A DNA stretch of 64,000 nt from Acidobacteriaceae bacterium (GTDB taxonomy: Bacteria > Acidobacteriota > Terriglobia > Terriglobales > Acidobacteriaceae), in the NCBI GenBank assembly GCA_030037545.1, contig JASHRF010000053.1:22966-86965 (forward strand). The letters run 5' to 3'. The notes beneath the pieces were generated by a model. The model was not told the origin of the DNA and did no database searches. It saw nothing but the letters and a program-made list of their open reading frames with translations. Of this stretch, positions 15,868 through 28,170 are shown piece after piece. How positions within the stretch are numbered: the stretch's first letter is position 1; each line of letters opens with the position of its first letter. A program made the translations under genes and the position numbers.

Positions 15868-17667
15868 ATGGCTGGGCAGGCGAAGATGGAACTGGATGCC
15901 TCGAGCGCAAGCGCGGATGTGTGTGCCGAAACGGCGTCCTCCGGTCACGCGCCCGAACCCCCGCCGGCCGGCAATTTCGAGGAGGAGCGCCGCGAACTGG
16001 AGCGGGTGCTCGCGCATCCTGAGATCAGCCGCTCGGCCAGCCTGGTGCGCTTCCTTTCATTCATCTGCAACAAGTATTTCGAAGGCCAAGCCGAAGAGAT
16101 TCGCGAGTATTCGATCGCCGTCGAGGCGCTGGGCCGCAAGGATTCCAGCTTCGATTCCCATATCGACCCCATCGTACGCGTCACCGCCCGCGCGCTGCGC
16201 AAGAAGCTCGAAGAGTTTTATAAGGACGATGGCCGCGACCACGCGCTGCAGATCGTTCTTCCGCTCGGTCACTACGTTCCGCAGTTTGTGCGCCGCGATG
16301 CAGGCACCGCGCCGCACACGGCGGCCGCTATCGGTGCGCCCTTCGCGGCCGCAAGCGAGCCGGCCGCCCCCCGTACCGCGCGCCATCCTTCTGCCCCACT
16401 TCACTTCCTGCGCGCTCACGGCACGGCGTTTGCCGTCTCCGCTGTGCTTCTCCTGCTCGTTCCCGCCGTTTTCCTTGCGGGCTACTACTTCGGACAAGCC
16501 AGGAATCGCCAGCCGCACCCGGTGAGCGAATCGCTCCGCTGGGGCGATCCGGTGTGGAGCGACGAGTTTAACGGCGCGGCCCAGCAATCGCCAGATCCGT
16601 CCAAGTGGACTTATGACGTGGGCAACCAGGCCGGCTGGGGCAATCGCGAGATCGAAGTCTATTGCGCACCCAAAGGCGGACCGCGGGACTGCGATCCGCG
16701 CCGTCCCAACGCCTTTCAGGACGGCGCCGGCCACCTGGTGCTGCGCGCCGTGCGCAATTCCGACGGCACCTGGACTTCAGCCCGCATCACCACGCGTGGC
16801 CTCAAGAATTTCCAATTCGGCCGCATCGAAGCGCGCATGAAGCTGCCCGTAGGCACCGGCTTGTGGCCGGCTTTCTGGATGCTCGGCTCCAACTTCCAGA
16901 CCGCAGGCTGGCCGGCCGCGGGAGCTCTCTCCATTGTCGAAAATGTTTCCAGCATCGCAGGCAGCAACGGCCTGGGCCCTACCATTGTCCGCTCCACGCT
17001 CCACGGCCCGGGCTACTATGGCGCCAACGGCCTCTGGCACGATTTCAGGCTGCCCAACGGCGCTCGCGTCGACGATGGCAGCTTTCACACCTACGGCATC
17101 ATCTGGTCGCCGGGCATGATTCAGTTCTACGTCGACGATCCGGCCAACATCTACTTCGTAGAGGATTCGAACGACTTACCCGAGGGAGGCGAATGGGTCT
17201 TCGACCATCCTTTTTATATGGTCATGAACCTGGCTGTGGGCGGGGACTGGCCCGGCAATCCCGACACCACCACGCCCAGCCCCGCCGACGTGCTGGTGGA
17301 TTACATTCGCGTCTACAAGATTCCGCCTGTCTCCGCGCCCTCCATCCAATGGCAACCCGTGGATGTGAAGGCCGGCTCATCGGTGGCCAGCATCATCAAA
17401 TTAAAGGCGTCCAGTTATCTGGGCCGCGTGCATCTTTCCTGCAGCACGGAGCCCGCCAGCGTGTACTGCGATCTGGGCCGCTCGGTGGTGAATTTTTCCG
17501 ATACGCTTTCGCAGGAAGACAGCCTGACCCTTTCCACGGATTCGTTCACGGGAACCGGCCGCGTGGCCGCGCCCATCGGCCGCTACAAAGTCATGGTCAC
17601 AGCCACCACCATCAGCGGCGACCACTCCCAGCTCAGCGCGCCCTTCGAGGTGAAGAACACCGATTGA
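15868..17667 (+). CDS. N-terminal regulatory-type domain + TM helix + GH16-like (laminarinase) domain
   Basis: EERRELERVLAHPEISRSASLVRFLSFICNKYFEG...DPIVRVTARALRKKLEEFY...ALQIVLPLGHYVPQFV; TM AVSAVLLLLVPAVFLAGYYFGQ; GH16 body WSDEFNG...FGRIEARMKLPVGTGLWPAFWMLG...HTYGIIWSPGMIQFYVDD. Confidence 0.82.
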   Translation: MAGQAKMELDASSASADVCAETASSGHAPEPPPAGNFEEERRELERVLAHPEISRSASLVRFLSFICNKYFEGQAEEIREYSIAVEALGRKDSSFDSHIDPIVRVTARALRKKLEEFYKDDGRDHALQIVLPLGHYVPQFVRRDAGTAPHTAAAIGAPFAAASEPAAPRTARHPSAPLHFLRAHGTAFAVSAVLLLLVPAVFLAGYYFGQARNRQPHPVSESLRWGDPVWSDEFNGAAQQSPDPSKWTYDVGNQAGWGNREIEVYCAPKGGPRDCDPRRPNAFQDGAGHLVLRAVRNSDGTWTSARITTRGLKNFQFGRIEARMKLPVGTGLWPAFWMLGSNFQTAGWPAAGALSIVENVSSIAGSNGLGPTIVRSTLHGPGYYGANGLWHDFRLPNGARVDDGSFHTYGIIWSPGMIQFYVDDPANIYFVEDSNDLPEGGEWVFDHPFYMVMNLAVGGDWPGNPDTTTPSPADVLVDYIRVYKIPPVSAPSIQWQPVDVKAGSSVASIIKLKASSYLGRVHLSCSTEPASVYCDLGRSVVNFSDTLSQEDSLTLSTDSFTGTGRVAAPIGRYKVMVTATTISGDHSQLSAPFEVKNTD

Positions 17668-25946: not shown

Positions 25947-26274
25947 GCTGCCGGCGGTACAAGGCGTTATCTTGGAGCTGCTCGTGGCCTGGGGGTAATC
26001 AGCCGCGGATTACCGCAAATCTCCCCGGAAGTACCACAAAGCAGAAATAATTTGTATTCCCAACCATCGGCAAAAGCAGATAATGGTGGCGTCATTCCCA
26101 AAGGCCTTGGGATTTCAACAGATCAGGGCGCCGATCTCATCGGGCCAGAGAACGATTTTTCCTCATGAATGCGAGGGCAGGTGTAGTGTGCCGGAAACAG
26201 CGGCTCTGTCACTTTTCAGGAGCCCGGTTCCAGCCGCAGCGTGTACCGGCCCGCGCGGAATTGCGCTGGTTCGG

Positions 26275-28170
26275 ATGGAAAGCCCTTCCCGGGAATCGGC
26301 GGAGGCGCCGGGCTCCGCGCTGATTTTTGGCAACTTCCGGCTCGTTGCCGGCGGCAGCCTCTTCCGCGGAGAAACGCGGTTGGAGATTACGCCGGCAGAG
26401 CTAGCAGTGTTGCGCCTGTTGCTGACTCACCCCGGCCAGATCGTCTCCGCGGCCCAGGTTCGCGAGGCCATGGGGAGTGCGAGCAGCCCGGCCCGGGCTG
26501 TTCCTGCCTGCATCGAGTCCCTGCGCGCGAGCCTTGGCCCCGAAGATCTCATTGAGACGGTGTACAAGCGCGGCTACCGGTTACGGGCTGGAGTGCGTCC
26601 ATACCGCAGCGGATTGCTCTCTGCCGAGCCGGGTTCGCCTTTCGCTCCGCTGCCCGCTCCGATCCTTGTGCCGAGTCTTGCCATCGTTCCATTCAGCGCC
26701 GCAGCCGGCACCCCGGAATACCTGGCCTGGGCGCTCGCGGATGAAACTGCCGCGCATCTGGCGCAGGCCAGGCCGATCTCTTTTCGCATCGCGGCTTCGC
26801 AATCGGTGGCCACTCTGGCCGGCCGCGGACTGAGCGCGCAGCAGATCGGCGCCGCCATGGGCGCCAGCCTGGCTCTTACCGGTAAAGTCTGGGCCTCGCC
26901 CACACACTTCCGCGTACGCCTGCAGATGATTCAGGTCGCCGGCGACCGGGAGTTGTGGTCGGAAGACCTGCTGATCGAGCTGGGCCAGGTTCCGCAACTG
27001 AGCCGTAGACTGGCCGCGCGGATTCAGTCGCGCCTGGAGGCGAGCATCACGATCTCGGCCGGGACCGGAGGGGAGCCCGTGCTAGAGCCGCCCTCCGTTG
27101 CTCCGCCAGCCGTTGAAAGCGTCCGGCGGACTCCGGAAGGAAGCTCCAAAACGATTCTCGAGCAAGACGAATCGTGGGAACTGCTCGCGCGCGCACGCAG
27201 CGAATGGCGCAGCCTGGAGCGCCACCAGATGCAGGATGCCCTGCAACGGCTGACCCGCGCCGCCGATCTCGATCCCACGCTGGCGGAAGCGCGCATCGAG
27301 CTGGCGAATCTGTGCGTGGCGCAGGCCCTGCACGGCTATTTGCAGCCGGGGACTGCCGCGCAAATGGTGCATCGCGCGGCGCAGCGGTTCCTTGATTCCG
27401 AGGATCGCACTCAGAGCGCTGCGACTGGAGCAGCAAATCTGCTTCCGGCAGCCATACTTCCCGCGCTCGGATGGGTCCACTTCTACGCCGATCGCGATCT
27501 GCCCGCGGCGCTCCAGGCCTTCGAGGGATCCGCGCATCTGCCCCACGACTCCCGGGTTACCAGCGCCCGCACTCTGTTTCCGCTCAGCCGCCGCCGCTTC
27601 ACTGAGGCCATCGACCTATTGAGCGCGGCACTGCGCCTGGACCCCTGGTCAGCCCTGCTGCACGCGCGGATGGCCTGGGCTCTGCACCTGGCCGGCGAGG
27701 CTGCGGCCAGCGTCAAGCAGGCCGAGTACGCGCTTGCGGAGTTTCCTGACGACGAATCCCCCGCGCTCATCGGAGCCCTGGTGCTGGCGGCCAACGGCCA
27801 GGCGGGCCAGGCGGTGAAGATTGCCAGGGAGCTGGCGCGCCAACGCCCCTATTTCGACGCTGCCTCCGGCGTGCTGGCCCACGCGCTGGTTTGCGGCGGG
27901 CATCCTGAAGAGGCGCGCGAGATCCTCGAACGGCTGGAGTGGCTCAGTCGCGAACGCTATGTTATGAGCACCTTCAATGCCGCGGCCTGGGTGGCGCTGG
28001 ATGAGCCTGAGGCTGCGATCCAGCAGTTACGCGCGGCAGAGCAGGCCCGCTGCCCGTGGTTCTTTCAGATGATGGCAGACCCTCGGTTGGCCGCGCTCCA
28101 CGCGCACCCGGAATTCCAGGCCATGGAGGCCATTCTGGCCGGCATGGAAGCGACGGCTGTGAACCGCTAA
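26275..28170 (+). CDS. Winged-helix (CadC/OmpR-type) regulator with TPR-like C-terminal region
   Basis: FGNFRLVAGGSLFRGETRLEITPAELAVLRLLLTHPGQIVSAAQVREAMG...ETVYKRGYRL; long helical repeat region. Confidence 0.8.
   Translation: MESPSRESAEAPGSALIFGNFRLVAGGSLFRGETRLEITPAELAVLRLLLTHPGQIVSAAQVREAMGSASSPARAVPACIESLRASLGPEDLIETVYKRGYRLRAGVRPYRSGLLSAEPGSPFAPLPAPILVPSLAIVPFSAAAGTPEYLAWALADETAAHLAQARPISFRIAASQSVATLAGRGLSAQQIGAAMGASLALTGKVWASPTHFRVRLQMIQVAGDRELWSEDLLIELGQVPQLSRRLAARIQSRLEASITISAGTGGEPVLEPPSVAPPAVESVRRTPEGSSKTILEQDESWELLARARSEWRSLERHQMQDALQRLTRAADLDPTLAEARIELANLCVAQALHGYLQPGTAAQMVHRAAQRFLDSEDRTQSAATGAANLLPAAILPALGWVHFYADRDLPAALQAFEGSAHLPHDSRVTSARTLFPLSRRRFTEAIDLLSAALRLDPWSALLHARMAWALHLAGEAAASVKQAEYALAEFPDDESPALIGALVLAANGQAGQAVKIARELARQRPYFDAASGVLAHALVCGGHPEEAREILERLEWLSRERYVMSTFNAAAWVALDEPEAAIQQLRAAEQARCPWFFQMMADPRLAALHAHPEFQAMEAILAGMEATAVNR

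Follow-up and report, generated by a model that had tools for sequence, protein, structure and literature searches.

The window, the whole 64,000-nucleotide stretch analyzed here, encodes a protein that is most likely a CadC/ToxR-like one-component transmembrane (TM) transcription activator for the use of laminarin-type beta-1,3-glucan. Computation establishes that its GH16 domain has lost the catalytic nucleophile and kept the groove, and also establishes its topology, the neighbours of its gene, and a DNA element associated with it. In an earlier note on this DNA, the protein had been interpreted as a one-component transmembrane receptor in which an inactive laminarinase senses glucan. That reading is supported by the clade-wide loss of the nucleophile, the kept groove, the beta-1,3-glucan neighbours, and a candidate operator whose occurrence follows that of the sensor. 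Further support comes from the N-terminal domain (N-domain), whose relatives hold the position that CadC-like and STAND proteins give to their DNA-binding domains.

Protein layout and the N-domain family

On the + strand, one reading frame is free of stop codons between 15616 and the end of the gene at 17667. Its start codon is likely ATG 15886 (MELDASS...), in agreement with several orthologues; other in-frame ATGs lie at 15868 and 15616. The features of the gene are as follows.

15886..17667, + strand: sensor gene, 593 aa; orthologues L008-L010 and L012 likewise begin M[EQ]LD..
15976..16296, + strand: N-domain, residues 31-137, cytoplasmic, a putative DNA-binding winged helix whose acidobacterial family is uncatalogued
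16297..16425, + strand: linker, low-complexity and fast-evolving (dN of the linker plus TM stretch is above that of both domains)
16426..16494, + strand: single TM helix, residues 181-203, with a hydropathy peak of 2.5 at residue 181
16534..17325, + strand: periplasmic domain resembling GH16 laminarinases, residues 217-480, predicted to lack catalysis (Pfam PF00722; 2hyk alignment; AlphaFold2 and Foldseek)
16921..16941, + strand: degenerate active site G-A347-L-S349-I-V-E352 (gga gct ctc tcc att gtc gaa; from alignment; loss in 19/19 sensors)
17326..17664, + strand: Ig-like C-terminal beta-sandwich, residues 481-593, all-beta in the AlphaFold2 model and kept in orthologues

The earlier note had placed one TM helix between the N-domain and the GH16 domain. 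Indeed, the 19-residue Kyte-Doolittle mean locates such a helix at residues 181-203, and all orthologues have a hydrophobic segment. The protein shows a single hydropathy peak (residue 181) followed by a C-terminal GH16 sensor, which is the CadC/ToxR-type topology. Pfam recognizes only GH16-type domains in the whole protein, with no histidine kinase or receiver as in Bacteroides HTCS. Similarly, no RsgI-type family is among the Pfam and NCBIfam matches of the sensor protein or of the N-domain family.

Searches of Pfam, NCBIfam, and PDB sequences with the N-domain, alone or as a 41-member alignment, gave no match. Its relatives are numerous in Acidobacteria, with up to 19 per genome, and occur also in rhizobia and Azospirillum; some are annotated as TPR proteins. 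Fusion partners of the domain are malectin, TPR, PD40 beta-propeller, and NB-ARC/AAA plus TPR, and such partners also accompany winged-helix domains in CadC-like and STAND regulators. When compared by hhalign with local Trans_reg_C domains, the OmpR-type winged helix of PF00486, the DPIVRVTARALRKKL helix aligns with the recognition helix in a local alignment of 30 columns. The resemblance is weak and its probability low (12%), but all 400 column-shuffled profiles and all 32 natural slices without an HTH score below this local alignment. A global hhalign alignment of the N-domain to Trans_reg_C is no better than decoys, and a single-sequence AlphaFold2 model (pLDDT 58) puts helices in plausible places, is unreliable, and has no fold match. 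The N-domain is probably a diverged winged helix.

The window also encodes, at 25999-28167 (+), a 722-aa protein with a Trans_reg_C winged helix and TPR, a second CadC-like candidate with the classic layout. In other genomes, proteins that combine the N-domain with a malectin sensor (L238, L239, L243-L251), several of which adjoin TonB-dependent-receptor-like (TBDR-like) or intact GH16 genes, probably form a sister group of regulators that sense carbohydrates. The protein at L252:6237-8972 (genome G462) joins the N-domain to NB-ARC/AAA and TPR in a STAND layout, where the slot of the N-domain normally holds a DNA-binding domain. At L337:2237-4438 (G489), a trypsin domain lies ahead of the N-domain in one open frame, perhaps two genes read together. 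A large subgroup (L202, L157-L160) comprises N-domain-TM proteins of 400-450 aa with an unclassified extracytoplasmic domain, for which the one member scanned, L202, has no Pfam match.

A laminarinase fold without its nucleophile

Sequence and structure model both identify the extracytoplasmic domain as a GH16 laminarinase fold. The domain matches PF00722 (GH16) with an E value of 5.7e-15 and 2hyk with an E value of 1e-60 in a PDB sequence search. Structure prediction, which the earlier note had suggested as a check, yields a confident fold: an AlphaFold2 model made with 43 sequences has a pLDDT of 88.6 and a pTM of 0.87, and its Foldseek hits include two laminarinases, 3atg and 2hyk, with E values near 1e-27 and a TM-score to target of 0.93-0.96.

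The E-x-D-x-x-E triad of the enzymes is absent, and the canonical block G-E-I-D-I-M-E reads G-A-L-S-I-V-E. The earlier note had also proposed an alignment with active GH16 proteins; alignment to the solved GH16 laminarinases 2hyk and 3atg shows Ala347 in place of the nucleophile Glu and Ser349 in place of the helper Asp, with the acid/base Glu352 retained. The earlier note had therefore read the motif and its missing nucleophile correctly; its coordinates, 16920-16940, were one base off, the correct ones being 16921-16941.

A search for homologues in genomes of the family and order added 18 full-length proteins, giving 19 sensors, and showed that the loss is not a one-off. The nucleophile is missing in 19/19 of these N-domain-fused GH16 proteins, the position being occupied by Ser in 17, Ala in 1 (the window protein), and Thr in 1, whereas unfused GH16 entries in the same data keep E-D-E in 112/112 (about 107 distinct); the genomes in all our counts are related, so the counts are not independent. 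Of the 18 close sensors, 7 retain the helper Asp and 11 have lost it; every one of them retains the acid/base Glu. The 19 sensors are monophyletic (FastTree support 0.92). A divergent orthologue from another family of the order (L237:10466-12475, G326:C37) reads G-S-I-G-I-M-Q, with both Glu residues gone (S and Q); a GH3 gene follows it, with an element-like site in between. No other captured dead glycosidase was found in the 29 other N-domain proteins scanned.

Outside the active site, the domain has changed little from the active enzymes. At 57 columns that are at least 88% conserved in those enzymes, the sensors clearly differ only at E347 and D349, with drift at 329 and 351. The groove residues W327, W331, W342, and R300 and the acid/base E352 are retained in 17-18 of 18 sensors. 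The binding groove thus appears intact, and its residues may contact ligand in the sensor protein as well. The dN/dS of the window gene against L007 is ~0.09 for the N-domain and ~0.12 for GH16, which indicates purifying selection on both domains. A pseudogene is ruled out by the dN/dS of about 0.1, and a sequencing error by the occurrence of the nucleophile loss in 19 genomes.

Laminarinase mutants with a Glu-to-Ser change serve as non-cutting binders; one of these, ZgLamA E269S, is inactive and binds laminarin with a Kd of 1.78 uM (PMC4606783). The substitution recurs in further PDB entries, namely 6xqm (E144S), 4crq (E142S), and 4bow. By analogy, the pseudo-GH16 domain may bind beta-1,3-gluco-oligosaccharides without cleaving them.

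Gene neighbours and a candidate operator

In the window, the sensor gene stands by itself among unrelated neighbours (DUF1579, FGGY kinase, phosphotransacetylase). In relatives, it adjoins, on the same strand, genes for a TBDR-like outer-membrane protein (CarboxypepD_reg plus OMP_b-brl_4) and two GH16 proteins with intact triads, in the order TBDR-GH16-GH16-sensor or sensor-TBDR-GH16-GH16. The sensor adjoins a gene of GH81, an endo-beta-1,3-glucanase family, in genomes G197, G131 (with a TBDR beyond GH81), and G591, and a GH3 gene in G326. Altogether, beta-glucan genes (TBDR and/or GH16, GH81, GH3) are adjacent in 17/18 relatives; G600 has neither such neighbours nor a detected element. The window genome carries its TBDR-GH16-GH16 cluster on another contig (C26:649-6402). 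We propose that the sensor has been separated here from its operon, which on C26 still carries the element.

Alignment of the regions upstream of TBDR reveals one near-invariant block, CGTAAATTTATC-N4/5-CTTACGTTTCCA, within otherwise unalignable DNA. Upstream of the block lie palindromes of the form TTTAC-CC-GTAAAT with half-sites GTAAAT/ATTTAC, which look like the operator of a dimer. Allowing up to 3 mismatches, the element occurs once in the 4.17-Mb window genome, at C26:533-561, just upstream of TBDR, and a reversed-pattern control finds no match in the same 4.17 Mb. Across 300 family genomes, the strict pattern matches 10, comprising 9/13 sensor-bearing genomes versus 1/287 others (Fisher 1.5e-13, ignoring kinship). 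The lone strict match without a sensor (G113) is at an unrelated gene. A relaxed pattern gives 74 matches versus 85 in shuffles and thus no excess; the operator results were taken from the strict pattern and a position-specific score only. Half-site density is 5.05/kb in element promoters versus 0.48/kb, the former having been picked for carrying the element.

The position-specific score upstream of TBDR is 18-24 of 25 in 11/11 testable sensor-bearing genomes, versus 14-16, the shuffle level, at 11/11 TBDR orthologues from genomes without the sensor, five of which are 60-71% identical. A generic TBDR promoter element is ruled out by this absence. In G177, the TBDR is only 36% identical, yet the strict element is present upstream of it. 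The element seems to travel with the sensor rather than with the receptor, because close TBDR orthologues without the sensor lack it. Its reader could alternatively be another regulator inherited with the cluster.

Proposed mechanism, alternatives, and known systems

The neighbouring genes suggest that TonB-type receptors together with GH16 and GH81 proteins would bring beta-1,3-gluco-oligosaccharides into the periplasm. There, the pseudo-GH16 groove would hold them intact; non-cleavage is predicted from the presence of Ser, Ala, or Thr at the nucleophile position. A bound ligand may then change the oligomerization or conformation of the domain, with an effect that crosses the single TM helix, upon which the N-domain would bind the GTAAAT/ATTTAC operators (the conserved block and the palindromes) and activate the receptor-GH16-GH16 operon.

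This mechanism presumes that GH16 is no longer an enzyme. That another residue or an unusual mechanism stands in for the nucleophile is extremely improbable: the acid/base Glu352 persists in 18/18 close orthologues, as it might in an enzyme, but all 112 unfused entries have Glu where the sensors have Ser, Ala, or Thr, the helper Asp is gone in 11/18, the acid/base of the G326 protein is Gln as well, and ZgLamA E269S, the corresponding laboratory mutant, has no activity (PMC4606783). It is also quite unlikely that the protein is a non-regulatory, membrane-anchored glucan-capture protein of the surface or periplasm, with the N-domain as scaffold or interaction module. Capture needs neither an inner-membrane TM helix nor a cytoplasmic domain, members of the N-domain family are found in proteins of many unrelated layouts (TPR, propeller, NB-ARC), and a sensor-specific element lies upstream of the operon, although an inactive binding domain encoded beside transport genes does recall glycan-capture proteins and the N-domain has no catalogued function.

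The remaining alternative accepts regulation and makes it indirect, with the N-domain acting on a partner (as an anti-sigma factor or by protein-protein contact) and another factor, such as an ECF sigma factor or a separate cluster-borne activator, reading the element. RsgI6 of Clostridium thermocellum, a GH sensor working via a sigma factor, offers a precedent (PMC4711584), the element is at promoter distance and could belong to the core promoter, and DNA binding by the N-domain is itself a prediction. We consider this unlikely, since no second regulator is a constant neighbour in the compared stretches, the upstream palindromic half-sites resemble a dimer operator, and the presence of the element follows that of the sensor even when a different contig carries the operon. 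The one-component activator is the reading that we prefer.

More tentatively, the protein may represent a new signalling class: one-component TM regulators built on an uncatalogued DNA-binding family expanded in Acidobacteria, in which a single capture of a whole glycosidase, followed by inactivation at the nucleophile, gave rise to a sensor for polysaccharides that has an operator of its own. If so, the N-domain family would be a major unrecognized carbohydrate-sensing route in Acidobacteria, and its varied sensor domains could serve as a catalogue of stimuli for hard-to-grow soil bacteria. The sensor would be a clean natural example of how nucleophile loss can make a receptor out of an enzyme, by the same substitution that structural biologists use for trapping substrate. 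A testable ligand (beta-1,3-glucan oligosaccharide), a target operon, and an operator sequence are supplied together. In the open-access literature, we found no comparable GH16 pseudo-enzyme sensor and no account of the N-domain family.

Insect beta-glucan recognition proteins are natural inactive GH16 domains, and to our knowledge neither these nor Rv0315 of Mycobacterium are known as TM-regulator fusions. Rv0315 is likewise a natural inactive GH16, without laminarin binding (PMC4606783). The sensor shares its fold and groove with 2hyk, 3atg, and the mutants ZgLamA E269S, SCLam E144S, and ZgLamC E142S, whose Glu-to-Ser change is found in most natural orthologues; unlike the sensor, 2hyk and 3atg are stand-alone enzymes, and the mutants are laboratory-made. 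Acidobacterial malectin paralogues share the N-domain and TM layout and a carbohydrate-binding-type sensor, and some adjoin GH16/TBDR genes, but they carry malectin in place of pseudo-GH16.

RsgI6 is an anti-sigma factor with a weakly active GH10 sensor (PMC4711584). It uses this GH domain of very low activity to sense extracellular polysaccharide and control glycanase genes, much as we propose for the pseudo-GH16 domain here. RsgI6, however, is a Gram-positive anti-sigma factor with GH10, whereas the present sensor has a GH16 domain whose nucleophile is wholly lost, and the sensor protein would apparently bind DNA directly. One-component TM regulators of the CadC/ToxR type are a known kind (survey, PMC10269533). 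Like these, the sensor combines in one polypeptide a putative DNA-binding domain at the cytoplasmic N-terminus, a single TM helix, and an extracytoplasmic sensor at the C-terminus; unlike them, its N-domain is not recognized as Trans_reg_C or another catalogued HTH, and its sensor part is a captured, inactivated glycosidase.
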